Below, piece after piece: positions 5,801 to 33,002 of a stretch of DNA of 64,000 bases. This DNA comes from Sinorhizobium alkalisoli. Lineage in GTDB: Bacteria > Pseudomonadota > Alphaproteobacteria > Rhizobiales > Rhizobiaceae. The notes under the pieces are model-generated. The model made no database searches, was not told the DNA's origin, and saw only the letters and a program-made list of their open reading frames with translations. The translations under genes were made by a program, and so were the position numbers. The number at the start of each line of letters is the position of its first letter. Position 1 is the first letter of the stretch. The stretch covers positions 1,550,001-1,614,000 of the forward strand of contig NZ_CP034909.1 of assembly GCF_008932245.1 (NCBI RefSeq), read 5' to 3'.

Positions 5801-5965
5801 GAAACGCCTCCCACGTTTGAACGAAAGAACCACGGTCCTCTCCAATGAGACCAGTGTCTTATGTTGGATCCGCGAAATGAACTGAGATTTGGTCAGGTCG
5901 AACGACCGCAAATATTGGGCATAGTGCTCGGGCAGTGAAGGCTGAGCCTGCCGCCCGAGCAATCG

Positions 5966-7477: not shown

Positions 7478-7486
7478 GGCAGACCC

Positions 7487-7987
7487 TCACGGAAAGACCA
7501 CGTTCAACGCAAGCGCGAACACAACATAGATGAATGTGACCAAGCCGATCGGCACGCCCAGCACATGCAGGATCCGACGCTCGCCAGCCGCCACCATGAT
7601 CGCAGCGGAGAAGAGCGCGACGCAGAGATAGACACCCAGCGTTGCGAAGCTCAGGGTCTGCCCGACAAGGAGCAGGGCAACGATCAAAACAAGGAGCGGC
7701 CGCCGCCAACGGCTGTCGGAACGCCCCATTCTGCCCATGAGCCGCGCGACTGCGAGGCCGATCATCGATATGGTGGCGATTCCGGTTCCGAAGGCGACGA
7801 GAAGCGGGAATCCGCCCGCTCCGATATCGTTCGAATTGAAAGGCTTCGGCAGGTGGTACGCCTGGACGACGTACCAGGATAAAATCGCAAGTACGATCAG
7901 ACCGATCACGATTTCGAGTATCGGCAAAGGTATTCGGACATAGCCCTCCACTGGCTGCTCGCCCTTGTCGAGAACCTCGCTCTCCAT
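7487..7987 (-). CDS. TctB-family small membrane subunit of tripartite tricarboxylate transporter
   Basis: A 166-residue membrane protein with four hydrophobic segments, the expected size and topology for TctB (PF07331 type). The start is set at the ATG 7987 (MESEVLDKGEQ) because GGAGGAG lies 4-10 bases upstream. The open frame continues 45 codons further up but that part reads as non-coding and has no good ribosome site. It pairs with TctA directly downstream. Sequence conservation in TctB is low, so the call leans on size, topology and position. Confidence 0.88.
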   Translation of the reverse strand: MESEVLDKGEQPVEGYVRIPLPILEIVIGLIVLAILSWYVVQAYHLPKPFNSNDIGAGGFPLLVAFGTGIATISMIGLAVARLMGRMGRSDSRWRRPLLVLIVALLLVGQTLSFATLGVYLCVALFSAAIMVAAGERRILHVLGVPIGLVTFIYVVFALALNVVFP

Positions 7988-8208
7988 GGTCTCCTCCTTG
8001 CTGCCACTCTGCCGGCAAGTGCCGTATGGCAGCCATTTCCTCCAGCGCCGTTCGATGTGTTTTCGGATGACGACGCAAAGAGACGCGCCCACTGGCACGG
8101 CCTCGATCTTCGTTATGGGCACTCAGAGGTGTGAATTGAACTGAGTATATATTGGGCAGAATGTTCATTCGCCTTGGTCAAGGTGGCCACGTCACCGGCA
8201 GGCGGACG

Positions 8209-9318
8209 CTACGGCCGATCCGAACCGTCGCCGCCGTCGCAGCAGTTTCGGCGGCGCTCAAATCTGTGGCTCATGCGGATGATCCAGGGAATGTTCGGCA
8301 TCAGGATAAAGATGCGGGTCAAATGAAAGGCCGTGATCAGCGCAACGTCCTGGCCCAGAAATTTCGCTGTCAGCGCCATTTCGGTAACGCCACCCGGTGC
8401 AGTGCCCAGCACCATCAGCTCCCAGCTCAGCCCCGCCATCCGGGAGACGATGACCGCCATGATCGACGTCAGGGCGAGCATGAGAAGCGTCGTGACGATG
8501 GAAGCCGTGACGAGCCGCCCCGCCGCAGCGAAAAGTGATCTGCGGAAGGTCGAGCCAAGCCAGACGCCAAGAGTGACCTGCGCGCAGGAGAGAACGATTG
8601 ACGGGTAGAAGGACGGGGCGACGCCAAGTGCCGAAACTGCCGAAGAGGCAGCCAAGGGACCAAGAAAGAAGGGATTGGGCACGCGACATGCTTGGGCCAG
8701 CAACGCCCCGGCCATTCCTGTGCCGGCGAGGAGGAGGACAGCAATTGCATCGAGCTCACGCGTTGTCCGCACCATGTCGCGAGCCGGCCACCCGTCGATC
8801 ATGTAGATGGCGACCGGGACCAGGACCACGACGGACGCGATCCGCACGGTTTGAGACAGTATGACCGGACCGGGATTGCAGTTGTAACGTTCGGCCATAA
8901 CCGCTGCCTCCACGGGACTCGTCGGCAAGGAGGAGAGAAAGGCCGCAGTTAGGTTCAGGTTGGCCACACGCGCAAGCAGGAGCGCGACCACGAGCGCGCA
9001 GCACGCCGTGGCGAGTGCCATCCCGATAAGAAGCGGTGCGAATGCCAGGAGCATGGCGAATGCGGCGGGCGAGAAATATACCCCCACCTGCGACGCAATG
9101 ACGATCTGGCCGACCGGCCGCGTCTCAACGGGTATACGGATGTCCACCACGCCCGTCAGATAGAGCGATGCCGTGGCAAGCAGCGGTCCGATCATCCATG
9201 GCAGCGGCGACCCGATCCATGCCGCAAACGCCCCAGCGCCAGCACCGAACAGGTACACACCGACGAGGCGCGCCAGAAGCTGGCGGTGTGCGATTTCACG
9301 CCATGGCGGCACGCGCAT
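8209..9318 (-). CDS. AbrB-family membrane protein (duplicated AbrB transport domain)
   Basis: A 369-residue protein with roughly ten hydrophobic segments and two copies of an AbrB-type unit. The N-terminal half contains GSPLPWMIGPLLATA, and the C-terminal half contains FLGPLAAS and GTAPGGVTEMALTAKFLGQDVALITAFHLTR, a segment characteristic of the family once named ammonia monooxygenase-like. The biochemical role is not settled. In my knowledge such genes often sit beside Tct systems, as here, where it lies 221 bases upstream of tctB on the same strand and may be the first gene of the operon. The start at 9318 is the longest plausible one and has only a weak GAG/GGGG ribosome site. Confidence 0.82.
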   Translation of the reverse strand: MRVPPWREIAHRQLLARLVGVYLFGAGAGAFAAWIGSPLPWMIGPLLATASLYLTGVVDIRIPVETRPVGQIVIASQVGVYFSPAAFAMLLAFAPLLIGMALATACCALVVALLLARVANLNLTAAFLSSLPTSPVEAAVMAERYNCNPGPVILSQTVRIASVVVLVPVAIYMIDGWPARDMVRTTRELDAIAVLLLAGTGMAGALLAQACRVPNPFFLGPLAASSAVSALGVAPSFYPSIVLSCAQVTLGVWLGSTFRRSLFAAAGRLVTASIVTTLLMLALTSIMAVIVSRMAGLSWELMVLGTAPGGVTEMALTAKFLGQDVALITAFHLTRIFILMPNIPWIIRMSHRFERRRNCCDGGDGSDRP

Positions 9319-13197: not shown

Positions 13198-15429
13198 ATG
13201 ACGATTTCCAACACCCGCCCCATCACCCCGGACCTCATCGCCTCTCACGGGCTGAAGCCCGATGAATACGAACGCATCCTGAGCCTGATCGGGCGCGAGC
13301 CGACCTTCACGGAACTCGGCATTTTCTCGGCGATGTGGAACGAGCACTGCTCGTACAAATCCTCGAAGAAGTGGCTGCGCACGCTTCCGACCAAGGGGCC
13401 GCGCGTCATCCAGGGACCTGGAGAGAATGCCGGCGTCGTTGACATCGACGATGGCGACTGCGTCGTCTTCAAGATGGAGAGCCACAACCATCCCTCCTAT
13501 ATCGAGCCCTATCAGGGCGCGGCCACCGGCGTCGGCGGCATTCTTCGCGACGTTTTCACCATGGGTGCGCGGCCGATCGCGGCGATGAACGCGTTGCGCT
13601 TCGGCTCCCCCGATCATGCAAAAACCCGCCACCTCGTCTCCGGCGTCGTCGCAGGCATCGGTGGCTATGGCAACTCCTTCGGCGTGCCGACGGTCGGCGG
13701 GGAGGTCGAGTTCGACGCCCGCTATAACGGCAACATTCTCGTCAACGCCTTCGCCGCCGGTCTCGCCAGGGCCGATGCGATCTTCTATTCGAAGGCGGAA
13801 GGCGTCGGCCTGCCCGTCGTCTATCTGGGCGCCAAGACCGGTCGCGACGGCGTCGGCGGCGCCACCATGGCCTCGGCCGAATTCGACGAGTCGATCGAGG
13901 AGAAGCGCCCGACCGTCCAGGTCGGCGACCCCTTCACGGAAAAGTGCCTGCTGGAAGCCTGCCTCGAACTGATGCAGACCGGCGCGGTTATCGCCATCCA
14001 GGACATGGGCGCGGCCGGGCTTACCTGCTCCGCCGTCGAGATGGGTGCCAAGGGCGATCTCGGCATCGAACTCGACCTCGACAAGGTGCCGGTGCGCGAA
14101 GAACGGATGACCGCCTACGAGATGATGCTCTCGGAAAGCCAGGAGCGCATGCTGATGGTGCTGCGCCCGGAGAAGGAAGAAGAAGCCAAGGCGATCTTCG
14201 TCAAATGGGGCCTCGACTTCGCGATCGTCGGCAAGACCACGGACGATCTGCGCTTCCGCATCCTGCACCAGGGCGAAGAGGTCGCAAACCTGCCGATCAA
14301 GGAACTGGGCGACGAGGCGCCGGAATATGATCGCCCCTGGACGCCGGCCAAGAGCCCCTCGCCGCTCGAGACCAACGACATCCCGCAGGCCGACATCGCT
14401 GATGCGCTGCTGAAGCTCGTCGGATCCGCCAACAATTCTTCGCGCCGCTGGGTCTACGAGCAATACGATACGCTTATCCAGGGCAATTCGCTGCAGTTGC
14501 CGGGTGGCGATGCAGGCGTCGTCCGGGTCGACGGTCACGAGACCAAGGCGCTCGCCTTCTCTTCCGACGTGACCCCGCGCTACGTCGAGGCCGATCCGTT
14601 CGAGGGCGGCAAGCAGGCCGTTGCCGAGTGCTGGCGCAATCTGACGGCAACGGGTGCCCTCCCCCTTGCGGCGACCGACAACCTGAACTTCGGCAATCCG
14701 GAGCGTCCGGAGATCATGAGCCAGTTCGTGCATGCGATCAAAGGCATCGGCGAGGCCTGCGGCGCCCTCGAATTCCCGATCGTGTCCGGCAACGTCTCGC
14801 TCTACAACGAGACCAACGGCCAGGCGATCCTGCCGACCCCGACCATTGGCGGCGTCGGTCTGATCAAGGACTGGTCGAAGATGGCGCGCATCCGCTTTGC
14901 GGCAGCCGGCGAAACAATCCTGCTCGCCGGCGCTCCCGAAGGCTGGGGCACGCATGTTGCGCAGTCGGTTTACATGCGCGACATCCACGGTCGCACCGAC
15001 GGCCCGGCGCCGCATGTGGACCTGGCGCATGAGCGCAAGGTCGGCGATTTCGTCCGCACCCTGATCGAGGACGGCCTGGTAACCGCCGTGCATGACTGCT
15101 CGTCCGGCGGTCTCGCGCTTGCCGTCGCCGAAATGGCGATGGCGTCCGGCATCGGGGCGACGATCGCAGCACCGGAGGGACGCGACCCGATCGCGGTCTT
15201 CTACGGTGAGGACCAGGGCCGCTATGTCGTGACCGCCGCCGACGCCCACATCGATGCGGTCGCCGCAAGGGCGGAGACCGCGGGCATCGCCCTGCCGGTC
15301 ATCGGCAGGACCGGCGGCGATATGGTCAAGCTCGGCGCGGCAAAGGCAGTGCCGGTTACGGACCTGCGGTCCGCCCACGAAGCCTGGTTCCCCACCTATA
15401 TGGGTGGCGATCTCGCGCCGGACAATTGA
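13198..15429 (+). CDS. purL: phosphoribosylformylglycinamidine synthase subunit PurL
   Basis: A 743-residue small-form PurL, which converts FGAR and glutamine-derived ammonia to FGAM with ATP in de novo purine synthesis. It works with PurS and the glutaminase PurQ, which are not in this window. Visible features are the N-terminal [17 protein letters not shown] segment, VQGPGEN-like [14 protein letters not shown], the ATP-binding [27 protein letters not shown] block, and the second AIR-synthase-like half containing DLNFGNPE-like [11 protein letters not shown]. The length matches the rhizobial form. It is followed by bolA after 125 bases. Confidence 0.97.
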
Positions 15430-22918: not shown

Positions 22919-23085
22919 AAAACACGGAGTAGCGTTCCGGCCAAGGCTGGAGATCGCCGACATCTTTCGTAGCTATGGCCCCGCGTGGCAGCGGGCCAAT
23001 GCCGGCATGTAAGCCTGGTCCAGCTCAAGGTCATGAAGGCGATCGAAGTCTGCCGAACCGAGGCGCTCTCGGCCAGGATGTGCTG
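22919..23085 (+). pseudogene. remnant of an IS91-family transposase N-terminus
   Basis: Conceptual translation with two frameshifts reads RPRLEIADIFRSYGPAW, then HVSLVQLKVMKAIEVCRTEAL, which matches what I know as the conserved N-terminus of IS91-family (Y2, HUH-type) transposases. The frame then breaks and no zinc-finger or catalytic tyrosine region follows. It is therefore a short decayed end of an IS91-type element. It marks the junction between the ttcA backbone and the aromatic/alicyclic acid island. Confidence 0.7.
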
Positions 23086-23130
23086 AATATGGCGCTTACC
23101 GATGAGGCCCGCGCCAAGTACGGCCAGCAT
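23040..23130 (-). pseudogene. 5' stump of a Gfo/Idh/MocA-family dehydrogenase gene
   Basis: Starting at the ATG 23130, 21 bases after the aroQ stop, the minus strand encodes MLAVLGAGLIGKRHIQHIL followed by AESASV. This is the first beta strand and dinucleotide-binding GAGLIGKRH loop of Gfo/Idh/MocA oxidoreductases. After about 30 residues the frame runs into sequence that on the opposite strand is the IS91 transposase remnant. The gene was probably the next member of the aroQ operon and was cut off when the IS91-type element moved in or deleted neighbouring DNA. Confidence 0.65.
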
Positions 23131-23151
23131 AACCCGCTGATCATGGTCACT

Positions 23152-23601
23152 TCAGCCCGTGCTGGCCGCCTTGATCATTGTCGCCGCGCGCCGGATGGCA
23201 AGCTGGTAACCTTCTGTTCCAAGGCCGCAGATTACGCCGTCGGCGCGGTGCGAAACGAACGAATGGTGTCGGAAGCTTTCGCGCTTGTGCACATTGGAGA
23301 TGTGGATCTCGATCACGGGCCCTTCAAATGTGTTCAGAGCGTCGAGGATAGCGAGTGAGGTATGGGTGAAGGCCGCCGGATTAATGACGATGCCCGCACC
23401 GTCTTCGCGCGCCTCATGAATCCAATCGATGATCTCGTATTCCCGGTTGCTCTGATGAAAGCGGATTTCATGGCCGAGTTCGGCTGCCAGCTTGCGGCAG
23501 TCCGCCTCTACGTCTGCGAGGGTTTCATGCCCGTAGATGTGCGGCTGGCGTTTGCCAAGCAGGTTGAGATTTGGTCCATTGAGAACGTAGATCAAACTCA
23601 T
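23152..23601 (-). CDS. aroQ: type II 3-dehydroquinate dehydratase
   Basis: A 149-residue type II dehydroquinase, interconverting 3-dehydroquinate and 3-dehydroshikimate. The active-site set is visible: [17 protein letters not shown] with the essential Arg18 and Tyr23, [14 protein letters not shown], and [17 protein letters not shown] with the catalytic His100 and flanking Arg. It lies in a catabolic-looking operon with a quinate/shikimate-type dehydrogenase rather than with biosynthetic aro genes, so it probably works in quinate or shikimate breakdown. Confidence 0.96.
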
Positions 23602-23634
23602 AGCATAGTGTCCTTGTTGAGCACGTCGTCCTGG

Positions 23635-24003
23635 TCAGACGACTGCCGTGGCTTGAGCAGCAAAATCAGGGTCCGACTCGTAGAGATCGGCACGCAAACC
23701 GAGCCTTCCAGCTTCGAGAGCAGGCGCGGCGATCACCCGCGCGGCCTCGAGAACGGCAGTGAGAAGCTTCTGCTTGATCTCCGCAGTACGACCCGGTGCC
23801 ATCCGCAAGATGATTTGGATGAAATGATTATCGAGATTTTCATCGCCGACGCAGGAGTATGTCGCCTCCCGCGCAAGCGTGCGCACGGCGGAAGGTTTCA
23901 CAAGGCCGCCATCGCGAACGCAGCGATGCACGGCCAGGGTGAGCCGGTCCATGGCCACATGCTCGCCCGCGCCCCGGCTATAATCGATGATGATATGCGG
24001 CAC
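23635..24003 (-). CDS. 5-carboxymethyl-2-hydroxymuconate isomerase-family tautomerase (GTG start)
   Basis: A 122-residue member of the CHMI (HpaF/HpcD) branch of the tautomerase superfamily. The start is decided by chemistry and ribosome site together. A GTG at 24003 is preceded by GGGAG with 7-base spacing and encodes M-PHIIIDYS, which puts the catalytic Pro directly after the initiator Met as the family requires. The upstream ATG at 24036 would bury that proline. Other family parts are SGAGEHV-like RGAGEHVAMDRL and HFIQIILRMAPGRTAEIKQKL. In homoprotocatechuate degradation CHMI isomerises an unsaturated dicarboxylate; here it is mixed with quinate genes, so the substrate is open. Confidence 0.88.
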   Translation of the reverse strand: MPHIIIDYSRGAGEHVAMDRLTLAVHRCVRDGGLVKPSAVRTLAREATYSCVGDENLDNHFIQIILRMAPGRTAEIKQKLLTAVLEAARVIAAPALEAGRLGLRADLYESDPDFAAQATAVV

Positions 24004-24017
24004 TTGGGATCTCCCCA

Positions 24018-24884
24018 TCAAGCCGACAGGCGGCATAAATCGGTAAAGTGACGAGACATGCGCTCTGCGTCGGGTGCGATCCCGGTAAACAATTCGAAAG
24101 CCGCTGCTGCCTGGTAGACGGTCATGCCGCCGCCGGGAAGGGTCCGGCAGCCTTTTCCTTCGGCGAGCGCAAGGAGCTCAGTGACGAGCGGCATGTAGAC
24201 GATGTCGGCGACCCAATGCCGCGGCAGAAGCCAATCCGGGTCGATCGGCAAACCTGGATGGCTCTTCATCCCCGTCGGTGTCGCGTGGATAAGGCCTTCC
24301 GCGGAGCGCAGGGCACCGCCGACGTCCGTCGTGGCACGGGCACAATCCCTTGAGAAGCGATCGTTCAACTGCCCAGCCAAGGTCTCTGCCCGTTTCGAAT
24401 CCTGGTCAAAGATCGATATTCTCTCAATACCGAGCTTGATTGCGGCATGCGCCACGGCGACACCGGCACCGCCGGCGCCCAGCAGCACGGCATGCGACAT
24501 CGCGACGTCCGGAAGGCCGCGCTGGAAATTCTCGTAGAAACCGTACCAATCAGTGTTGTGGCCGATCCTCTCGCCGTCACGAAAGACCACGGTGTTGACC
24601 GCACCGAGCATCTCTGCATCCTCGGAAAGGCGATGGAGGTGGGCGATCACCGTCTGTTTGCACGGATGCGTAATGTTGCTCCCGGCAAAGCCGCGCCGCT
24701 CTTCCTCGTCGAGGAGGTCCGGCAGCGCCGAGGCGGGAAGGCCTCGCTCGGCCAGATCGAGAAGCTCGTAACGGTAATCGAGGCCCTGATGTCGAGCTTC
24801 CGTTTCGTGGAGCGCCGGGGACTTTGACATTTGAATGTCGGCCCCGATCAGTCCCACGAGAAATTTCTTGTCGTGCATTGGCAT
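24018..24884 (-). CDS. quinate/shikimate dehydrogenase (AroE family, probably catabolic and NAD-linked)
   Basis: A 288-residue AroE-family enzyme. Substrate-binding residues are Ser20 and Ser22 in MSKSPALHE, the catalytic Lys76 in SNITHPCKQ and Asp112 in GHNTDWYGF. The cofactor loop is LGAGGAGVAVAHA. The second strand ends in FDQD at Asp160, where NADP-specific biosynthetic AroE has an NRT-type basic motif, so NAD use is more likely. The SNITHPCKQ form is what I know from quinate/shikimate dehydrogenases of actinobacteria and related catabolic enzymes. It lies 14 bases before the tautomerase gene and 12 bases after the ABC ATPase gene. Confidence 0.9.
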   Translation of the reverse strand: MPMHDKKFLVGLIGADIQMSKSPALHETEARHQGLDYRYELLDLAERGLPASALPDLLDEEERRGFAGSNITHPCKQTVIAHLHRLSEDAEMLGAVNTVVFRDGERIGHNTDWYGFYENFQRGLPDVAMSHAVLLGAGGAGVAVAHAAIKLGIERISIFDQDSKRAETLAGQLNDRFSRDCARATTDVGGALRSAEGLIHATPTGMKSHPGLPIDPDWLLPRHWVADIVYMPLVTELLALAEGKGCRTLPGGGMTVYQAAAAFELFTGIAPDAERMSRHFTDLCRLSA

Positions 24885-24896
24885 CGCTTTCGAACG

Positions 24897-25670
24897 TCAG
24901 TGGTGGGCCAGGATTTCGCCGAGGAAGGTTTTCGTGCGTTCATGCCGGGGAGACTTGAAGAAGACATCCGGTTGGGCCTCTTCGACGATTTCTCCGGAAG
25001 CCATGAAGATGACGCGATCGGCGACTTGGCGGGCAAAGCCCATTTCGTGCGTGACGCAAATCATCGTCATGCCGTCACGGGCGAGCCCGATCATGGTGTC
25101 GAGCACTTCCTTCACCATTTCGGGATCAAGGGCAGAGGTCGGTTCGTCGAAGAGCATGACCTTCGGCTCCATGCAGAGCGCGCGAGCGATGGCAACGCGT
25201 TGCTGTTGGCCGCCGGATAGCTGCGCTGGATATTTTTCCGCTTGGTCAAGGATGCGGACGCGCTCGAGATATTTTCGAGCCAGTCGCTCTGCGTCAGTGC
25301 GGCTTGTGCCTCGAACACGCATCGGGGCAAGCGTACAGTTCTGAAGCACGGTCATGTGCGGGAAGAGATTGAAACTCTGGAAGACCATTCCCACTTCGCG
25401 ACGGATCGCATCGATGGACTTGCTGCTTCCGTCCAGTACCTGACCCTCGACGACGATCTTGCCGTCCTCGATCGTTTCGAGGGCGTTGATGCAGCGGATT
25501 AACGTCGATTTCCCGGAGCCTGACGGCCCGCAGAGGACGATTTTTTCGCCTTTGCGGACCGATAGGCTGATGGATTTCAAGGCATGGAAAGCGCCGTACC
25601 ACTTCTGTACGTCCTCAAGGGAAATCAGCGTCGGTTGACCGGTTGCGGTATTGAGCACGGAACTCTCCAT
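24897..25670 (-). CDS. ABC transporter ATP-binding protein, polar amino acid/HisP type
   Basis: A 257-residue ABC ATPase. Walker [11 protein letters not shown]-loop [17 protein letters not shown], signature [15 protein letters not shown], Walker [15 protein letters not shown] and the H-loop CVTHEMGFA are all intact, and the GlnQ/HisP-like subfamily is clear. It energises the two permeases encoded further up the operon, which take substrate from the binding protein at 25778-26602. A hairpin-rich repeat separates it from the binding protein gene. In this context the cargo is more likely a quinate- or shikimate-type acid than an amino acid. Confidence 0.94.
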
Positions 25671-25679
25671 TTGGGCTTT

Positions 25680-25772
25680 AGAGCATGATCCGACCGGAGT
25701 AAAACGAGGATCGATAAGATCATGCGTCGGAAGAAAGCGTTACAGCGCCGATCTGATCCAGTCAGATCGGCA
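25680..25772. repeat. rhizobial intergenic palindromic repeat between ABC ATPase and binding-protein genes
   Basis: The stretch contains GCATGATC and its reverse complement GATCATGC about 30 bases apart, followed by a 10-base-pair hairpin GCCGATCTGA (25747-25756) / TCAGATCGGC (25762-25771). I recognise the AGAGCATGATCCGA...GATCATGCG layout as a common dispersed intergenic element of Rhizobiales. Lying inside an operon, it may lower the downstream transcript relative to the binding protein. Confidence 0.65.
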
Positions 25773-25777
25773 CGCGC

Positions 25778-26602
25778 TTAGTTGACGGTGAACGGGATGT
25801 TTGGAATCGATTCCGGGAACTGCGGCAGATCGATTGCCATCCACTTTTTCGTGACGGCGGCAAGCTCACCATTGGCCTTGATCTTCTCGATGAAGGCGTT
25901 GACGGCTTCGTTCCAGTCCTTCTCGCCGAGACGGGTCCCGACGCCGTTGTAGGTCGTCAGAAAGTCAATCTTGCGCTCATAGGTGCCGGCACTCGCCGCA
26001 TCCAGACGCTGGCCATAGAACTGGTTGCCGCCAATCGCCTTTACCTGTCCGGAGATGAGAGCCTGAATGGTTGCGGCGTCGTCATCAAAGCGGCGAACCG
26101 TCGCGGTGGATCCGACGGCGTCCGTGACGGCCTTGTCCTGCGAACTGGACTTAGGAACGCCAATCTCCCATCCCGCAACGTCTTCAGGCTTCGTAACCGT
26201 GTCGGACTTCGCGGCATAAAGGGAAATCGTGTTAGCGGCGTAGGGCTTGCTGTATTGAATCGATTTCGCGCGTTCTTCCGTCATCGCCATCGTTGCGAAC
26301 AGGATGTCGACTTTGCCGGTCGTAAGCGCCGGAATTCGGTTGGCGACGGCCAGCGGCTGGAATTGAACGTTCACGCCCAACTCCTTAGCAAAAAGGTTGG
26401 CGACGTCGGCGTCGAAGCCGTCCTGCACGCCGCTTGTGTTGACGAACCCCCATGGCGCATTGTCGCCCTGGATGCCGACCACAAGCGTGCCCTTTGCCTT
26501 GATTTCCTCCACACTTGCCGCAGAGGCGGTGGCAGCACCAACGGTTGCGAAGGCAATGGTTGCCAGTGCAAGTCCGAGAAAATTCCGACGATTGTGATGC
26601 AT
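25778..26602 (-). CDS. periplasmic solute-binding protein, family 3 (amino-acid type)
   Basis: A 274-residue binding protein. I chose the ATG at 26602 (MHHNRRNFLGLALATIAFA) because GAGGAGGAG lies upstream and it opens a signal peptide with a basic start, a hydrophobic core and cleavage near ASA-AS at about residue 29. The mature part shows the family 3 blocks GTLVVGIQGDNAPWGFVN, FDADVANLFAKELGVNVQFQPL, DILFATMAMTEERAKSIQYSKPY and KWMAIDLPQFP. It delivers ligand to the two permeases downstream. The ligand is unknown; the operon favours a cyclic hydroxy acid. Confidence 0.93.
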   Translation of the reverse strand: MHHNRRNFLGLALATIAFATVGAATASAASVEEIKAKGTLVVGIQGDNAPWGFVNTSGVQDGFDADVANLFAKELGVNVQFQPLAVANRIPALTTGKVDILFATMAMTEERAKSIQYSKPYAANTISLYAAKSDTVTKPEDVAGWEIGVPKSSSQDKAVTDAVGSTATVRRFDDDAATIQALISGQVKAIGGNQFYGQRLDAASAGTYERKIDFLTTYNGVGTRLGEKDWNEAVNAFIEKIKANGELAAVTKKWMAIDLPQFPESIPNIPFTVN

Positions 26603-26643
26603 GCTTATTCTCCTCCTCAAGAGTTTTGCTTCGAGCGAAGCGG

Positions 26644-27294
26644 TTATCGGGCAGCTTTCGCCATCCGTTTTTCGAGGCCGCTTCCGGCATGGGAGAGCGG
26701 CCAGCAAATGATGAAGTAGATTGCGCCGACGATCCCGAAGACGAGCAGCGGACGATAGGTCTGGTTTGAAATGATCTGGCCGGCGCGAGTGAGTTCAATG
26801 AAGCCGACGATTGCTGCCAGCGACGTGCCCTTGATGAGCTGGACAAGGAATCCGATCGTGGCCGGCATCGAGATTTTCAGGGCCTGCGGCAGGACGACGT
26901 CTTTCATCCGCGAGACATAATGCAGACCGAGGGCGTTGGCGGCTTCCGTCTGTCCCTTTGGCACAGCCTCGATGGAACCGCGCCAGATCTCTCCCAGGAA
27001 AGCACTGGCATGGAGCGTGAAGGCGATTGCGACCGCGATCCACGCATTGACCTCGATGCCCAAAAGCGCAACGCCGTAGTAGACAACGAAAAGCTGCATC
27101 AGAAGGGGCGTGCCCTGGAAGACGCCGATATAGCCTGCTGTGATCCTCCGGGCGGCTTTCGTCTTCGAGGTGCGCAGCAGCGCGATCAGGATTCCGAATA
27201 TCCCCCCACCGATGAACCCTACGATCGCGAGCAGCACGGTCCACTTCAAACCCTGCATCAAAAAGAAGAATTCATTTTCACCGATTGGACCCAT
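26644..27294 (-). CDS. ABC transporter permease, polar amino acid type (subunit 2)
   Basis: A 216-residue inner-membrane permease of the HisM/GlnP family with about five membrane segments. The EAA coupling loop is visible as EAANALGLHYVSRMKDVVLPQALKISMP, and the family mark RGTPLL appears as FQGTPLLMQLFVVYYG. It pairs with the permease gene just upstream (9-base gap) to form a heterodimeric channel. The N-terminus MGPIGENEFFFLMQGLKWT is short and periplasmic or cytoplasmic without a signal. Confidence 0.93.
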   Translation of the reverse strand: MGPIGENEFFFLMQGLKWTVLLAIVGFIGGGIFGILIALLRTSKTKAARRITAGYIGVFQGTPLLMQLFVVYYGVALLGIEVNAWIAVAIAFTLHASAFLGEIWRGSIEAVPKGQTEAANALGLHYVSRMKDVVLPQALKISMPATIGFLVQLIKGTSLAAIVGFIELTRAGQIISNQTYRPLLVFGIVGAIYFIICWPLSHAGSGLEKRMAKAAR

Positions 27295-27303
27295 GGCTGC
27301 CTC

Positions 27304-27972
27304 CTATCGCGTCGGGTAGTTGAAGTAGCGGCGGGAAATAAGGGCGAAGAGCCCCATCATCAGGGTCGAGATAACCAGATAGATAGCGGTCACCGTGAAA
27401 TAGACTTCGAAGCTGCGGAAGGTGTCAGACTCAATGCGCTGAGCGGCCGAGGTCAGTTCGTAAGCGGCGATTGACGTGCAGACGGACGTTGTCAGTGTCA
27501 GCATGATGAACTGGCTTGTGAGCGAGGGATAAATCGCCCGCAGCGCCGGCTTGAGCACGATGAGCCGGAAGACGTCCGCCTTGTGCAGTCCGAGGGCGAA
27601 GCCAGCCTCGATCTGGCCACGCGACACGCTCTCGACCCCGCCTCGAATGATCTCGATTGCGTACGCGCCACCGTTGATGCCGAGGGCAATGATCGCCGTA
27701 ACGGTCGGATTGAAGCGTATGCCCATGAGAGGAAGGGCAAAATATATGAAGAATATCTGCACGAGGAATGGCGTATTACGCACGACCTCGACGAACACGA
27801 TCACGGGAGTGCGTGTGATCTCGCTCTTGGACGTCCTTGCCACAACGCCCAGGATTCCGATAACGAGCGCCAGGAGCATCCCAGCCAACGCAAGGCCAAG
27901 CGTTCCAAGCGAACCCCACAGCAATTCCGGGGCGCGGTCGAGGACCGCACCGAAATCGAACCTATAAGGCAT
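27304..27972 (-). CDS. ABC transporter permease, polar amino acid type (subunit 1)
   Basis: A 222-residue permease homologous to its neighbour. The family blocks VVRNTPFLVQIFFIYFALP and the EAA loop QIEAGFALGLHKADVFRLIVLKPAL are clear, with GINGGAYAIEIIRGGVESV before it. With the other permease, the ATPase and the binding protein it makes a complete importer. It is preceded after 46 bases by the TIM-barrel gene. Confidence 0.93.
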   Translation of the reverse strand: MPYRFDFGAVLDRAPELLWGSLGTLGLALAGMLLALVIGILGVVARTSKSEITRTPVIVFVEVVRNTPFLVQIFFIYFALPLMGIRFNPTVTAIIALGINGGAYAIEIIRGGVESVSRGQIEAGFALGLHKADVFRLIVLKPALRAIYPSLTSQFIMLTLTTSVCTSIAAYELTSAAQRIESDTFRSFEVYFTVTAIYLVISTLMMGLFALISRRYFNYPTR

Positions 27973-28018
27973 GTAAGACTTCCTCCTTCCGACCGGCCTA
28001 TGCCACGTCGGCGCCGGA

Positions 28019-28840
28019 TCACTGATCCGGTTTCAAAATTCCCAGCGCGCTCTCATGGAGATGTTTTAAATGTGCCTCCGGGTCCACCGACCCGACGAGT
28101 GGCACTTCAACCGAGATAGCAGTGCCGTGTTCGGTTGCCGCCCACAGGTCCTTCAATGGCAATTCGCCTTCCCCGGGAGCGAGCCTGCCGCCTCTAGCCT
28201 CGGCGATCATTGCTTCCGATGTTTTGGGAGCAGGCCCGCGGACGTCGCAAAACTGCACGTGTTTTACCTTCCCCGCATTTGGCCGAAGCTCGTCGACCGA
28301 GGCGCCGTTTCGGAAGAAGTGAATCCCGTCAACAAGGATACCGGCGTTCTCTGCTCCGCAGGAATTCACGACCGCTACGCTGTCGCGAAAGGTTCTTACC
28401 GTCCGCCAACCCATGTTTTCGATGTCGACTGACATGCCATATCGCGCCGCGAGGGCGCAAAACTCCGAAAGGTTTGTGGCAAGACGACCGCCGTCGCGAT
28501 CATCGCCGCAAACACTCAGCCGGCGCGCCCCTATGTTCGCAGCGGCTGCCACGGTCGCCTCATGGCAGGCCGCGACGAAGCTCTCGTCGATCACGAAGAA
28601 CTCGATATCGAACACCTTGATGCCTTCGCCATCGGCAACGGCCTTGAATTCCTGGGCACTCCGGCTGCCCACCGGCAACTCGTAGAAAGGGGCTCCGGGA
28701 AAGGCGGGGTGGAGACGCAGCCCTATCGACGCAAAACCCGCCCGAGCGGCGATCACGGCGAACTCCTTGGGCGCCAGCGTGATGGATGAAAAATGCGCCG
28801 CGCCCAGTTCGGGGCCCGGTCCTGGCGTCGCGACGGTCAT
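28019..28840 (-). CDS. TIM-barrel sugar-phosphate isomerase/epimerase family protein, candidate 3-dehydroshikimate dehydratase
   Basis: A 273-residue AP_endonuc_2 (xylose isomerase-like) TIM barrel. The ATG at 28840 shares its A with the TGA of the GntR gene, so the two are translationally coupled; an in-frame ATG 26 codons up lies inside the regulator. Candidate metal ligands are the acidic residues in DIEFFVIDE, VDIENMGWR, ILVDGIHF and VQFCDVRG. The same fold includes the AsbF and QsuB/QuiC-type 3-dehydroshikimate dehydratases, which make protocatechuate from 3-dehydroshikimate, the product of AroQ. That role would complete the operon, but hydroxypyruvate isomerase or inosose-type activity cannot be excluded. 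Confidence 0.8.
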   Translation of the reverse strand: MTVATPGPGPELGAAHFSSITLAPKEFAVIAARAGFASIGLRLHPAFPGAPFYELPVGSRSAQEFKAVADGEGIKVFDIEFFVIDESFVAACHEATVAAAANIGARRLSVCGDDRDGGRLATNLSEFCALAARYGMSVDIENMGWRTVRTFRDSVAVVNSCGAENAGILVDGIHFFRNGASVDELRPNAGKVKHVQFCDVRGPAPKTSEAMIAEARGGRLAPGEGELPLKDLWAATEHGTAISVEVPLVGSVDPEAHLKHLHESALGILKPDQ

Positions 28841-29577
28841 CACAAGATCCCCTTTGTCGCGAGGTGTTTGCGCAGATTGGTTCCCGTGCGGTGAATATGC
28901 TGACGCAACATGTCGCACGCATAGTCCAGATCACGCGCGACGGCTCCCTGAGCAATCTCACTGTGCTCCTGGCTGACGTTGCGGTCACCCGACGTGCGGG
29001 TCAGAAACGCCCGGCGATAACGGTCGTTGAGATTGAGAAGCAGTCTGCAGAAATGGAGCAGGATCGGCTTCCCGCAGCCCGATATGAGTGTCAGATGAAA
29101 TTCGCGGTGGAGCTCCTCCCAGCGCTCCAGTGTCTCCGGACGAGCTGCGTCACGCTCGGTGCGATTCAGGCGATGCAGCGCGCGCATGACGTTGCCTTCC
29201 CACTCGACGTCGCCGACCCGCATGGACTCGCGAAGCGCAAAGATTTCGAACTCTTCGCGCAAGGTGGTTATCTCTTCCAGATTGGCCAGGGAAATCGGTG
29301 AAACGCGGTAGCCGCGATTGTCCTCGAACTCCACTAGACCGTCCGATATCAGCCGCGCCAACCCTTCACGCAGCGGACTGAGGCTCACGTTGAACGTCTT
29401 GCGCGCCTTGTCGAGATTGATCTTGCTGCCGGCCTGAAGCTCGCCAGAGATGATCGCCTCACGAAGACGGGAGGCAAGCTGGCTCCCAATTGTGTTTTTG
29501 CCGTCATCGAGAAAGCCAGAAGACGATGGAGCATCTTCTGTCGTCGGAGCAAATGCGCCGTCGTCATCCGGTACCAT
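28840..29577 (-). CDS. GntR-family transcriptional regulator (FCD type)
   Basis: A 245-residue GntR/FadR-like regulator. The start ATG at 29577 (MVPDDDGAFAP) has GGGAGGAAC just upstream; the frame is open 40 codons further but without a ribosome site. The winged helix is SQLASRLREAIISGELQAGSKINLDKARKTFNVSLSPLREGLARLISDGLV, and a helical FCD ligand domain follows with EFHLTLISGCGKPILLHFC. It heads the minus arm of the island and faces the dioxygenase gene, so it probably represses both arms and is released by a pathway acid. Palindromes at 29784-29795 and 29620-29635 are likely sites. Confidence 0.92.
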   Translation of the reverse strand: MVPDDDGAFAPTTEDAPSSSGFLDDGKNTIGSQLASRLREAIISGELQAGSKINLDKARKTFNVSLSPLREGLARLISDGLVEFEDNRGYRVSPISLANLEEITTLREEFEIFALRESMRVGDVEWEGNVMRALHRLNRTERDAARPETLERWEELHREFHLTLISGCGKPILLHFCRLLLNLNDRYRRAFLTRTSGDRNVSQEHSEIAQGAVARDLDYACDMLRQHIHRTGTNLRKHLATKGIL

Positions 29578-29619
29578 TGTTCCTCCCAGGGTTCCTCGAG
29601 CTAATTGTCGATGATCGAT

Positions 29620-29635
29620 ATAATAAACGATTATT
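29620..29635. promoter_or_regulatory. second candidate GntR operator, near the gntR start
   Basis: ATAAT-AAACG-ATTAT at 29620-29634 is an inverted repeat sharing the CGATTAT half with the perfect palindrome at 29784-29795. It lies about 43 bases before the GntR ATG and could serve autoregulation. The different centre length (5 against 2 bases) makes it weaker evidence. Confidence 0.4.
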
Positions 29636-29776
29636 CCTGTCAACTTGAGTGCGCTTAATCTGCAAAATTCGAGCGGCCAGCCGCATTTATCAAACAATGT
29701 TTCGAAAAATCAATGCACTGAATGCCGATATCTTGGTTCTTCCGACCAATTGTCGCTGCGAGGACGCATGGCAGCC

Positions 29777-29804
29777 TTGACATATAATCGATTATTTTGA
29801 TAGT
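29777..29804 (+). promoter_or_regulatory. sigma-70-like promoter with palindromic operator in its spacer, for the dioxygenase operon
   Basis: A TTGACA -35 box (29777-29782) and a GATAGT -10-like box (29799-29804) are 16 bases apart. The spacer contains the perfect 12-base palindrome ATAATCGATTAT (29784-29795). A regulator bound there would block polymerase, which fits repression by the divergent GntR protein. The dioxygenase ATG follows 24 bases after the -10 box with GGGAGG in between. Confidence 0.65.
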
Positions 29805-29828
29805 CGGGGAAACCGGGAGGTAGCCCAC

Positions 29829-30722
29829 ATGGTGATCAAAACTGAATGCGATCTGACGCCAGCCGTCCTTGCTGTGATGAATCGCACTGAAGACCCCCGC
29901 CTGCGGGAAATCCTCGTGGCGATGGTCAAGCATCTTCATGCCTTCGTGCGCGAGGTTCGACTGACGGAGGTCGAGTTTCGGGAGGCGACAGCCATTCTGA
30001 ATGAGATCGGGAAGCTGCATACCGATCATCACAACGAGTTTGTACTGATGGCCGGTTCCCTTGGCGTGTCTTCACTTGTCTGCCTGCTGAACAATGGCGA
30101 CAGCGGACAGACTGAGACCTCCCAGTCGCTGTTGGGCCCATTCTGGCGGCTCAACTCTCCGCGAGTCGAAAATGGCGGGTCGATCATCCGATCCGAGACG
30201 CCGGGCACTCCCTTGTTCGTGCATGCCAGCGTCGTCGACCGCGACGGTAAGCCAATTGCCGGCGCCGAAGTGGACGTGTGGCATGCATCTCCCGTCGGTC
30301 TTTATGAAAACCAGGACCCGGACCAGGCCGAGATGAACTTGCGCGGCAAATTCATGACCGACGAGCAAGGTCGGTTCTGGTTCAGGACCGTCAAGATGGT
30401 CGGGTATCCGATACCGGTCGATGGCGTGGTCGGACGCCTGCTCAAAGCTCAGGGACGCCATCCGTACCGACCAGCGCACCTGCACGCACTGATCTTCAAG
30501 CATGGATACAAGACGCTGATTTCCCAGGTCTTCGACCCCAGCGACCCGAACATCGACTCCGATGTTCAGTTCGGTGTCACGGCAGCGCTGACCGGCGACT
30601 TCATTCGTCATGAGGAGCCCCATCCGACCGAAGCGGATATTCCTGGTCCGTGGTTCTCGCTCGACTACACCTATGTCATGGAGCCCGGCGAAGCCGTTTT
30701 GCCGCGTCCCCCGATCAAGTAA
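29829..30722 (+). CDS. intradiol ring-cleavage dioxygenase, hydroxyquinol 1,2-dioxygenase-like
   Basis: A 297-residue non-haem Fe(III) intradiol dioxygenase. The four iron ligands are visible: Tyr159 (ASPVGLYEN), Tyr193 (KMVGYPIPVDG), His217 and His219 (YRPAHLHALIF). The N-terminal helical dimerisation domain (1 to about 105) and the following SLLGPFWR and DVWHASP segments fit the catechol/hydroxyquinol 1,2-dioxygenase group rather than protocatechuate 3,4-dioxygenase; the MVGYPIPVDGVVG region resembles hydroxyquinol enzymes. It cleaves a 1,2-dihydroxy or 1,2,4-trihydroxy benzene between the hydroxyls. GGGAGG lies 7 bases before the ATG. No maleylacetate reductase is nearby, which is odd for a pure hydroxyquinol route. 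Confidence 0.9.
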   Translation: MVIKTECDLTPAVLAVMNRTEDPRLREILVAMVKHLHAFVREVRLTEVEFREATAILNEIGKLHTDHHNEFVLMAGSLGVSSLVCLLNNGDSGQTETSQSLLGPFWRLNSPRVENGGSIIRSETPGTPLFVHASVVDRDGKPIAGAEVDVWHASPVGLYENQDPDQAEMNLRGKFMTDEQGRFWFRTVKMVGYPIPVDGVVGRLLKAQGRHPYRPAHLHALIFKHGYKTLISQVFDPSDPNIDSDVQFGVTAALTGDFIRHEEPHPTEADIPGPWFSLDYTYVMEPGEAVLPRPPIK

Positions 30723-30746
30723 ATCACGATCAGCAGAGCAAACGAT

Positions 30747-31529
30747 ATGATCACCGAAGAAGAACGCCGGGCCGCGGCAGACGCGCTGCTCAAAGCTGAA
30801 ATCGAGCGCAAGCCGATCATTCAGCCTAGCCAGACCTACCCGAACCTCGAACTCGAGGACGCCTACCGAATTCAGGCTTTGTGGGCGGAGGCGAGAGTGG
30901 CCAAGGGTGCACGGATCGTCGGGCATAAGATCGGCCTGACGTCACGCGCGATGCAGATGGCTTCGAAGATGACGGAGCCGGACTACGGCTGCATTCTCGA
31001 CGATGCGCTTTACAACGACGGAGCGCAGATCAGGGCTGACCTGTTTATCAAGCCGCGCCTCGAGGTCGAGCTGGCCTTCGTCATGGGTGAGGATCTCGTC
31101 GGGCCCGGCACCAGGATCTATGACGTCATGCGTGCGACCGAGTTCGTTGTCCCGGCGCTCGAGATCATCGACTACCGGACCGAAGTCCCTCGAGCGATCA
31201 CCGATACCATTGCGGACAACGCGGCTTTCGGCGCCCTCGTCGTTGGCGGCCGTATAATTCGGCCGATGGACATCGATATCCGTTGGGTCGGAGCGACTCT
31301 TTCCAAGAACGGCATCATCGAGGAGTCGGGCGTTTCGGCGGCGATCATGGGACATCCGGCAGCCGGCATTGCGTGGCTGGTCAACAAACTTCATGCTGTG
31401 GGCGGCGGCCTGAAGAAGGGACAAATAGTCCTGGCCGGCTCGTTCACGCGCCCTGTCGATATCGCGAAAGGTGACGTCATTCAGGCCGATTACGGCCCTG
31501 TCGGCTCGATCGGCGTGTCGTTCGTGTGA
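30747..31529 (+). CDS. 2-oxo-hept-4-ene-1,7-dioate hydratase / 2-keto-4-pentenoate hydratase family
   Basis: A 260-residue hydratase of the HpaH/MhpD (FAH-like) family, close to the usual 265 residues. Landmarks are [29 protein letters not shown] and the metal-binding acidic cluster [16 protein letters not shown], with a further acidic ligand in [10 protein letters not shown]. HpaH-type enzymes add water to 2-oxo-hept-4-ene-1,7-dioate to give the substrate of an HpaI-type aldolase, and such an aldolase gene follows 8 bases downstream. This combination normally belongs to extradiol (meta) pathways, whereas the preceding gene is an intradiol dioxygenase. Confidence 0.92.
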
Positions 31530-31537
31530 GGTGCTGG

Positions 31538-32329
31538 ATGGAACATCCTGTCAATCGGTTCAAGCAGAAGCTTCTTGCCGGTCAAAGTCAGATCGGCCTG
31601 TGGTGTGGCCTGCCGGGAAGCTACGCCGCGGAAATCGTCGCGCCTTCCGGTTTCGATTGGCTCCTGTTCGACACGGAACATTCTCCGGGTGACGTTCTGA
31701 CCGTCCTGCCACAATTGCAAGCGGTCGCACCATACGACGTTTCCCCAGTCGTCCGCCCGGCCATCAACGACCCCGTTCTCATCAAACGTTTCCTGGATAT
31801 CGGCGTTCAGACGCTGCTCATTCCTTACGTTCAGAACGCGGAAGAGGCGAAAGCCGCAGTCGCGGCCGTGCGGTATCCTCCGGAGGGAATTCGTGGTGTT
31901 TCCGCCCTGACGCGCGCCACTCGTTTCGGCCGAGTTGTGAACTATGCGCAAAATGCGGAACGGGAAATTTGCCTTTTGCTGCAAGTTGAGACGCGGGAGG
32001 CGCTTGGCAACCTCGAGTCGATTGCCTCGGTAGAGGGAGTGGATGGGGTATTCGTAGGACCGGCAGACCTGGCAGCGAGTTTCGGACACAGGGGCCAACC
32101 GAGCCACCCGGAGGTGGTCGGTGCAATCGTCGACGCGATTGAACGCCTGAAAGCCTTGGGCAAGCCTGCGGGCATTCTTACCCCGGATGAGACGTTCGCG
32201 GCACGGTGCATCTCACTGGGAACACTTTTTACTGCCGTTGGTGTCGATGTCGCCGTTTTGGCAAGGGGATCGGAAGCACTCGCGGCACGATTTTTATCGC
32301 AAGAAGCGTGCCGCGATGCCGGAACGTGA
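31538..32329 (+). CDS. HpcH/HpaI-family aldolase
   Basis: A 263-residue class II pyruvate aldolase. The start ATG at 31538 ([15 protein letters not shown]) follows GAGGTG; a GTG four codons up is less likely. Active-site features match Hpa[13 protein letters not shown] with the catalytic His, the Arg in [26 protein letters not shown] with a metal-binding Glu, and [20 protein letters not shown] with a metal-binding Asp. It should split 4-hydroxy-2-oxo-heptanedioate or a similar 4-hydroxy-2-oxo acid to pyruvate plus an aldehyde. The stop lies 14 bases inside the next gene. Confidence 0.94.
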
Positions 32330-33002
32330 AGAACTCCTCATTGAAATCGCACCGACGGGAGTCATCAGAGCGGCGGTCAACATGTCGAATGCCGCACTTG
32401 TCAAACTCGATCCGGTGACAGGCGTACTAAACGGGCAGAGCGCGCAGATCGCGACCGCACTTGCGGCAGAACTCGACTGCGGTTTGTCGCTGGTCCGATA
32501 CGGATCGGCTGCCGACATTCTCGCGGCTGCCGAAGGCAGCGAGTGGGACGTTGCGTTCATTGCTTCCGATCCGTCACGTGCCGACAGGTTCTCCTTCTCG
32601 CCACCCTATACCACGGTGACCGCCAGCTTTCTGGTATCGGACCGGAGCCCTCTGGGCAGCGTCGAGCATGTTGACGTCGAAGGGGTGCGCATTGCCGCAG
32701 CCAGAACCGCTGCGTATACAAGGGAGCTTGAGCGACAGATTAGAAGTGCAATCCTCCTCCATACCGAAAGTCCCGCCTCCGCCCTGGACATGCTTGTATC
32801 CTCCGAGTGCGATGCGGCTGCGGGCCTGACCGAGTCCCTGTCACGTTTCTGCGAAGAGAATCCAGGTTTCCGAGTTGTTGAGGGGACATTCTCGAAAGTG
32901 CCTCAGGCGATCGCTGTGCATCGGAGGTGTGTCCACGCGTCAACCTTCCTGTCGGACTTCATCCAACAGCATTGCAGTGCGGGTAAGCCGAGCAATCCTT
33001 AA
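32316..33002 (+). CDS. solute-binding-protein family 3-like domain without signal peptide
   Basis: A 228-residue protein made of one PBPb/family 3 periplasmic-binding-protein domain: [74 protein letters not shown] (shown here as consecutive landmarks) and a C-terminal QAIAVHRR block. The ATG at 32316 overlaps the aldolase gene by 14 bases. Neither this start nor any upstream codon gives a hydrophobic signal sequence, so the protein should stay in the cytoplasm. It may be a ligand sensor, an enzyme on the same fold as cyclohexadienyl dehydratase, or a decayed binding protein. Confidence 0.75.

Follow-up and report, generated by a model that had tools for sequence, protein, structure and literature searches.

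A conserved divergent gene cluster in Sinorhizobium alkalisoli combining quinate/shikimate enzymes, an intradiol dioxygenase and an HpaH/HpaI-type hydratase and aldolase

Gene content and order of the locus

The 64,000-nucleotide stretch of the Sinorhizobium alkalisoli genome analysed here (the window; C1:1550001-1614000 of genome G000, 6.13 Mb in 3 contigs) contains a divergent cluster of 13 genes that combines quinate/shikimate enzymes with an intradiol dioxygenase, an HpaH-type hydratase and an HpaI-type aldolase (Table 1). An earlier, sequence-only reading of this stretch had described such a locus under a GntR regulator, and all of the genes that it named, including the quinate/shikimate dehydrogenase (SDH), AroQ and a tautomerase, are open reading frames (ORFs) with Pfam or NCBIfam family support. 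The left arm runs in the order gntR, TIM barrel, two ABC permeases, binding protein, ATPase, SDH, tautomerase and aroQ, and the right arm in the order dioxygenase, hpaH, hpaI and a binding-protein homologue that lacks a visible signal peptide. Absent from the earlier gene list were the four-gene ABC transporter of polar amino acid type inside the left arm (24897-27972) and this second binding-protein homologue. That reading had also remarked on the lack of maleylacetate reductase and muconate-lactone genes, and neither was seen among the cluster ORFs.

In the textbook view of aromatic catabolism, intradiol ring cleavage is followed by a lower pathway that forms lactones, and extradiol cleavage by one that uses a hydratase and an aldolase. 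The cluster most likely represents a variant of aromatic catabolism in which an intradiol dioxygenase is joined to a hydratase/aldolase lower pathway and fed by quinate/shikimate enzymes. No description of this gene combination was found by title or abstract in the openly licensed PMC literature.

Some of the assignments in Table 1 need qualification. The tautomerase has no NCBIfam match, and its CHMI assignment comes from Pfam alone. CHMI-type tautomerases use Pro1 in catalysis, and the GTG start at 24003 would produce an N-terminal Met-Pro. The AroQ motifs presumably have the roles standard for 3-dehydroquinate dehydratases. For HpaI, the alternative starts are GTG 31526 and ATG 31538. No gene was identified between 22919 and 23070.

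Table 1. Features of the cluster, with positions in the window
Feature	Position	Strand	Evidence
Gfo/Idh/MocA oxidoreductase remnant, 23 residues	23071..23139	-	tblastn 74% over 23 aa, E 2e-5
AroQ, type II 3-dehydroquinate dehydratase	23152..23601	-	PF01220; TIGR01088 above cut-off; usual motifs located
CHMI-type tautomerase	23635..24003	-	PF02962 66.6 bits; GTG start 24003
Quinate/shikimate dehydrogenase (SDH)	24018..24884	-	NF009201 446 bits, above cut-off; best PDB match and nearest solved structure the quinate/shikimate dehydrogenase 3JYO
ABC transporter ATPase, polar amino acid type	24897..25670	-	GlnQ/EhuA-like, below equivalog cut-offs
ABC transporter binding protein	25778..26602	-	PF00497; refined ATG start 26602
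ABC permease	26644..27294	-	TIGR01726 above cut-off
ABC permease	27304..27972	-	TIGR01726 above cut-off
TIM barrel, kin to QuiC-type dehydratase domain and IolI	28019..28840	-	PF01261; ATG start 28840
GntR/FCD regulator	28840..29577	-	PF00392, PF07729; refined ATG start 29577
Candidate left-arm operator ATAAACGATTAT, one mismatch	29623..29634	.	Pattern search
Candidate right-arm operator ATAATCGATTAT, perfect palindrome	29784..29795	.	Genome's sole exact copy; same place in many sister loci
Intradiol dioxygenase, separate clade, Gly at Asp83 position	29829..30722	+	PF04444 + PF00775
HpaH-type hydratase	30747..31529	+	TIGR02312 351.4 bits, just below cut-off 351.5; best PDB match 2EB4
HpaI-type class II pyruvate aldolase	31526..32329	+	TIGR02311 412.4 bits, cut-off 368.8; PDB 2V5J
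SBP_bac_3-fold protein without visible signal peptide	32316..33002	+	PF00497; ATG 32316; profile matches AncCDT-1, 5JOS

Conservation, candidate operators and the dioxygenase clade

The cluster is a real, widely conserved catabolic unit. Within the genus, a dioxygenase orthologue of at least 96% identity occurs in 22 of 33 genomes (our own counted), and an HpaH of at least 98% identity is found in exactly the same 22, adjoining the dioxygenase by coordinates in each. The remaining 11 genomes, one of which (G009) is 70% complete, hold only weaker dioxygenase homologues and have no HpaH match at E 1e-60 or better. All 13 cluster genes were matched in each of the 12 same-genus loci fetched at about 20 kb (there are 21 other carrier genomes), in 3 of 3 loci from a genus taken for Rhizobium, and in plasmid loci of Shinella (L032) and Rhizobium (L033). 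Two Agrobacterium plasmid loci (L031 and L034) match only the TIM barrel, GntR, dioxygenase, HpaH and HpaI, with the cytosolic binding-protein homologue added in L034.

Beyond the genus, the wider dioxygenase group, counted at E 1e-75 or better and together with its sister clades, is patchy: among sampled genomes, 31 of 397 in the order and 12 of 398 in the phylum carry a member. A pattern-limited scan, with one genome per species, gave 561 stretches that code for relatives; the best 80 were analysed, and 33 of these have HpaH. Gene calls in these loci used identity cut-offs chosen after a first inspection. When the comparison is confined to the 58 well-flanked loci (more than 5 kb on either side), the 24 with HpaH contain TIM in 23, HpaI in 23, AroQ in 22, GntR in 22 and SDH in 10, and the 34 without it contain TIM in 3, AroQ in 4 and pcaH in 18. 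Fisher's test for association with HpaH gives 7e-12 for TIM and 6e-10 for AroQ, values in which related loci are not independent and two locus pairs are counted twice (identical DNA underlies L075 and L108, L083 and L122, L087 and L179, and L092 and L176). Pairwise distances of the dioxygenase, TIM, HpaH, AroQ and GntR proteins were also rank-correlated at 0.78-0.93 over 44 loci (two duplicate pairs among them; six Bradyrhizobium kstD-type loci left out beforehand), a correlation to which shared species history contributes. The gene association exceeds chance, as it recurs in many families. In Paracoccus, Salipiger, Pelagibacterium and others the genes lie on one strand in the order gntR-tim-aroQ-dioxygenase-hpaH-hpaI; an SDH-family gene sits between the hpaH and hpaI matches of Pelagibius L120, and SDH and TRAP genes adjoin the cluster in Aquimixticola L110.

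Between the two arms, ATAATCGATTAT, a perfect palindrome, is found 33 bp ahead of the dioxygenase start, and ATAAACGATTAT, a copy with one mismatch, 45 bp ahead of the gntR start. The genome as a whole has a single exact copy of the palindrome and five places that match it with at most one mismatch, three of them in the cluster; a reversed control pattern had 0 matches. One of these three (23980-23991) was discarded as an operator because it is tautomerase coding sequence (Ile-Ile-Asp-Tyr). Three matches with at most two mismatches in the window alone are not rare by chance, being reached in 8 of 100 shuffles, and the weight of the palindrome therefore comes from its rarity in the genome and its conservation. 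Exact copies are present in 63 of 201 loci (with many fetches that overlap at a single place) and in 17 of the 80 named loci, 16 of which have HpaH; they include loci of Microvirga, Lichenifustis and a member of the Rhodospirillales. The two arms are probably co-regulated, with both sites as candidate operators to which GntR may bind.

The dioxygenase carries Dioxygenase_N and Dioxygenase_C domains with the Tyr/Tyr/His/His motifs of the Fe(III) ligands, as do its nearest characterised relatives, PnpC (3N9T) and a hydroxyquinol 1,2-dioxygenase (1TMX). It differs from them in sharing only 37-39% identity, in two substitutions, in belonging to a separate clade and in having no linked maleylacetate reductase that we could see. 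In a 65-row tree, which includes a paralogue at locus L086 (genome G015), a split at 100/100 divides six reference or hydroxyquinol-type rows, whose side carries a long-branch warning, from the remaining 59, and the window's enzyme belongs to a broad clade of 51 rows that forks off at 99/95 (100/97 for 49 rows). The position of Asp83 in 1TMX, numbered by alignment, is Gly in the window's enzyme and in 33 of 33 clade rows, and Asp in the other 16 aligned rows; these 33 rows also have Gln at a second position, which is V/A before FGV elsewhere. We take Asp83 of 1TMX to line the substrate pocket, and the lack of an acid there would fit a substrate carboxylate at this position, as in gallate. The 120 matches listed from a search of 5.8 billion proteins, which was limited to 8000 candidates, are all close orthologues, and no conclusion rests on them. 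Sister dioxygenases that keep the Asp occur at L077, L078, L080-L082, L085, L086, L105 and L106, and several of these loci have a gene resembling BKACE (L086, below cut-offs) and, by eye, genes resembling zinc alcohol dehydrogenases, short-chain dehydrogenases/reductases and cupins.

The hydroxyquinol-type label of the sequence-only reading thus holds for the overall family, but not for the Asp83 position or the clade. A hydroxyquinol-type cluster exists separately on contig C2 (L187, C2:1040000-1059900; 5699-7623 and 14126-15031), where one of two hydroxyquinol-type dioxygenases is followed by an iron-containing alcohol dehydrogenase that we read as a maleylacetate reductase and that NCBIfam places only among such dehydrogenases. 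The earlier reading had named a dioxygenase acting only on hydroxyquinol, with a maleylacetate reductase elsewhere, as a point against its proposal; a candidate for such a reductase is present, but beside two dioxygenases of its own. Given the separate clade, the changed residue and this second cluster, we rejected the idea of a hydroxyquinol arm.

Proposed pathway and its alternatives

Hydratases of the FAA family and HpaI-type aldolases act on 2-oxo or 2-hydroxy-dienoic acids. An intradiol product would suit them only when another hydroxyl, the third, is adjacent to the bond that is cut, which favours a vicinal triol such as gallate or pyrogallol as the ring that is opened. Intradiol cleavage of pyrogallol yields 2-hydroxymuconate, and that of gallate 4-carboxy-2-hydroxymuconate. 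The known CHMI substrate carries an extra carboxyl-bearing branch, so the presence of a CHMI-type tautomerase leans to gallate. In a passage of PMC9204233, an intradiol enzyme is measured on pyrogallol and 2-hydroxymuconic acid is listed as product, and in one of PMC9167512 a spider-mite family of intradiol enzymes accepts gallic acid among other compounds. Gallate is ranked above pyrogallol because AroQ and SDH lead to dehydroshikimate (DHS), which plant DQD/SDH enzymes are described as oxidising to gallate (PMC7752791).

On this basis, we consider that the cluster may be one regulon serving one pathway, with a probability of roughly 0.4. A quinate/shikimate-like acid would be imported by the ABC transporter (TRAP genes lie beside some relatives), oxidised by SDH and dehydrated by AroQ to DHS. 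From DHS would come a vicinal trihydroxy ring, for which gallate is the likeliest candidate and pyrogallol the next. The dioxygenase would cut between two hydroxyls, with the third beside the cut, to give a 2-hydroxymuconate-type acid; from gallate this would be 4-carboxy-2-hydroxymuconate, the enol of 4-oxalomesaconate. The CHMI-type tautomerase, or spontaneous ketonisation, would form the 2-oxo acid, which the HpaH-type enzyme would hydrate and the HpaI-type enzyme would cleave to pyruvate and either oxaloacetate (gallate) or malonate semialdehyde (pyrogallol). GntR would control both arms through ATAATCGATTAT. Every substrate and product in this scheme, together with the oxidation of DHS, the role of the TIM barrel and the binding of the regulator, is inferred. 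The earlier suggestion that an unusual dioxygenase product is processed by tautomerase, hydratase and aldolase is the one we favour, in view of the distinct clade and of the way in which dioxygenase, HpaH, HpaI, TIM and AroQ travel together.

The scheme shares features with several known systems and differs from each. The cluster has homologues of the tautomerase HpaF, of HpaH (0.1 bit below cut-off) and of HpaI from the 4-hydroxyphenylacetate (hpa/hpc) meta pathway, which opens its ring with the extradiol homoprotocatechuate dioxygenase HpaD; the cluster's dioxygenase is intradiol, and its upstream genes are quinate/shikimate enzymes. The quinate/shikimate-to-protocatechuate (qui/qsu) pathway shares SDH, AroQ and a QuiC-related TIM barrel; in our genome, by contrast, pcaHG is on C2 and not adjacent, HpaH and HpaI are linked, and a QuiC-type set lies separately on C2. 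With the gallate (gal/lig) pathway the scheme would share 4-oxalomesaconate and 4-carboxy-4-hydroxy-2-oxoadipate (CHA) as intermediates and pyruvate and oxaloacetate as products, but GalA/DesB, GalB/LigJ and GalC/LigK would be replaced by the intradiol dioxygenase, HpaH and HpaI. Pyrogallol 1,2-oxygenase, which we take to be EC 1.13.11.35 and for which we know of no assigned bacterial gene, would likewise give 2-hydroxymuconate by intradiol cleavage and then pyruvate, whereas the cluster here is linked to quinate/shikimate genes. CHA aldolase is described as structurally distinct from HpaI (PMC5065237).

Elsewhere in the genome, a 4-oxalomesaconate tautomerase is encoded on C2 (513 bits, cut-off 440; L202, C2:1386000-1402000; 7382-8479). 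By eye its neighbours are ABC transporter and LysR genes, and no other gallate genes were recognised in the 16 kb; two RraA-like genes are found elsewhere in the genome. The genome has no match to the LigB extradiol family (PF02900), other extradiol families not having been searched. A 4-oxalomesaconate tautomerase without a LigB dioxygenase mildly favours another source of 4-oxalomesaconate and lends slight support to gallate.

Several observations weigh against the proposed pathway. The known substrates of HpaH and HpaI are linear dioates, a closer fit to pyrogallol than to gallate; we saw no decarboxylase, and the hydratases and aldolases of the known gallate routes in bacteria are unrelated to these two enzymes. 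The Gfo/Idh/MocA oxidoreductase gene is only a remnant at this locus. Of the 80 loci, 33 bear HpaH, and 17 of these, most of them in one-strand order, lack the exact palindrome. Bradyrhizobium has a 75-78% identical dioxygenase with pcaF nearby in 22 of 25 loci and HpaH in 0 of 25, and at L127 the dioxygenase and HpaH/HpaI occur with no match to TIM, AroQ or SDH. The kinship of the TIM barrel to QuiC predicts conversion of DHS to protocatechuate rather than gallate. Finally, oxidation of DHS to gallate by the plant enzymes is given as slow, with an optimum at unphysiological pH (PMC7752791).

The strongest alternative is two co-regulated arms, in which SDH, AroQ and TIM supply protocatechuate to PcaHG elsewhere while the dioxygenase, tautomerase, HpaH and HpaI degrade a trihydroxy aromatic, either environmental gallate or a leak from DHS. 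If the TIM barrel is a plain DHS dehydratase, this alternative gains, since protocatechuate could not feed HpaH. The possible dehydroshikimate dehydratase of the sequence-only reading is a relative of the QuiC-type protein that this genome encodes (match of 32% over 133 aa at E 2e-13; hhalign probability 97%). A profile of 17 TIM sequences searched against PDB found Lmo2234 first, then 5HMQ (E 3e-14), then IolI (E 1e-11) (2G0W, 5HMQ and 1I60, respectively); 5HMQ is deposited as a 4-hydroxyphenylpyruvate dioxygenase and we take it to be QuiC1. The invariant E, D, H, Q and E residues of the barrel look like a metal site. The pca genes on C2 agree with two arms, as do Bradyrhizobium loci L159 (just below the 35% TIM cut-off), L169, L173 and L176, in which genes resembling TIM, AroQ and SDH accompany pcaHG and the dioxygenase; two of the 80 loci have pcaH next to a complete HpaH-type cluster, with a third (L126) just below cut-off. 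However, the genome already encodes a nearly full-length, two-domain QuiC-type protein (NF042435 694 bits, less than the strict cut-off, 1200), which would make the TIM barrel redundant. Its gene adjoins a further SDH gene some 20 kb away from pcaHG (C2:1205900-1225800, L190, 13881-16753; by eye both genes follow transporter genes). Moreover, TIM stays with dioxygenase-HpaH-HpaI in L031 and L034, whose fetched 20.9 kb contain neither AroQ nor SDH. Two pathways under one regulator, the other option of the earlier reading, is the one that we regard as less likely.

A considerably less probable alternative is that the entry substrate is another hydroaromatic acid with one hydroxyl more than quinate, from which SDH or Gfo, AroQ and TIM would yield a trihydroxybenzoate or pyrogallol directly. 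It would use all three enzyme types in one line and agrees with the resemblance of the Microvirga Gfo member to inositol dehydrogenases (below cut-off) and of TIM to IolI, but no such nutrient could be named and AroQ retains the standard motifs. That the enzyme is an ordinary hydroxyquinol or catechol 1,2-dioxygenase, with HpaH and HpaI serving an unrelated substrate, is similarly improbable: its closest characterised structures are of this kind, but its clade and changed residue, the missing neighbouring maleylacetate reductase, the hydroxyquinol-type cluster on C2 and the strict linkage to HpaH in the genus argue against it.

The single pathway from quinate or shikimate through gallate or pyrogallol, if correct, has wider consequences. 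A conserved operon that crosses the intradiol/extradiol pairing predicts a specific chemistry, namely an adjacent third hydroxyl. More tentatively, it might constitute an undescribed aerobic pathway widespread in Alphaproteobacteria, in which ortho cleavage is combined with hydratase and aldolase steps of meta type and which bypasses the beta-ketoadipate route as well as the extradiol gallate route. The clade would then hold, to our knowledge, the first dedicated bacterial gallate/pyrogallol intradiol dioxygenases, and the HpaH/HpaI homologues would be non-homologous replacements of GalB/LigJ and GalC/LigK. The cluster offers candidate enzymes for pyrogallol cleavage in syringol/lignin conversion, for which a passage of PMC6628648 states the need for a dioxygenase that cleaves pyrogallol to a further metabolisable product.

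Neighbouring and accessory genes

The Gfo/Idh/MocA gene appears to be decaying in the window: matches of 344 aa occur in 10 of 15 sister loci, shorter ones in four (L089, L096, L102 and L088) and none in L095. Statements on Gfo rest on tblastn against the sister loci, an annotated Shinella gene and L124; some Gfo hits beside aroQ in the other loci were set aside as short matches due to an overextended ORF in the L067 query.

FAD-dependent flavoproteins lie near the dioxygenase in Bradyrhizobium (kstD-like, 5 of 80 loci) and at L076, and at L144 a fumarate-reductase-like flavoprotein, below cut-offs, stands beside aroQ; these could be alternative ways of oxidising the hydroaromatic ring. Molybdenum-hydroxylase-family genes, none above cut-off, accompany the same dioxygenase clade at L127 (with a TRAP transporter), L129 and L137, and possibly provide another route to the trihydroxy substrate.

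Two loci were discarded as evidence. At L069 the dioxygenase has LigK, 4-oxalomesaconate tautomerase and a pair of Amidohydro_2 genes (by eye similar to LigJ and LigI) in its vicinity, but a LigB dioxygenase and a LysR gene make that cluster self-contained. The acetaldehyde dehydrogenase and hydroxyoxovalerate aldolase of L135 belong to an mhp-like cluster with, by eye, an apparent extradiol dioxygenase of its own. At L133 (6608-9691) the dioxygenase is followed by PdxA-like and DapA-family genes.

Both binding-protein homologues of the window seemingly keep, by eye, the carboxylate-binding Arg and lack the usual amino-binding Asp, positions that we presume to have these ligand roles. This combination would suit a carboxylate ligand without an alpha-amino group. 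In profile searches the cytosolic homologue resembles reconstructed cyclohexadienyl dehydratase ancestors as well as amino acid binding proteins, and it may be an enzyme or a sensor.

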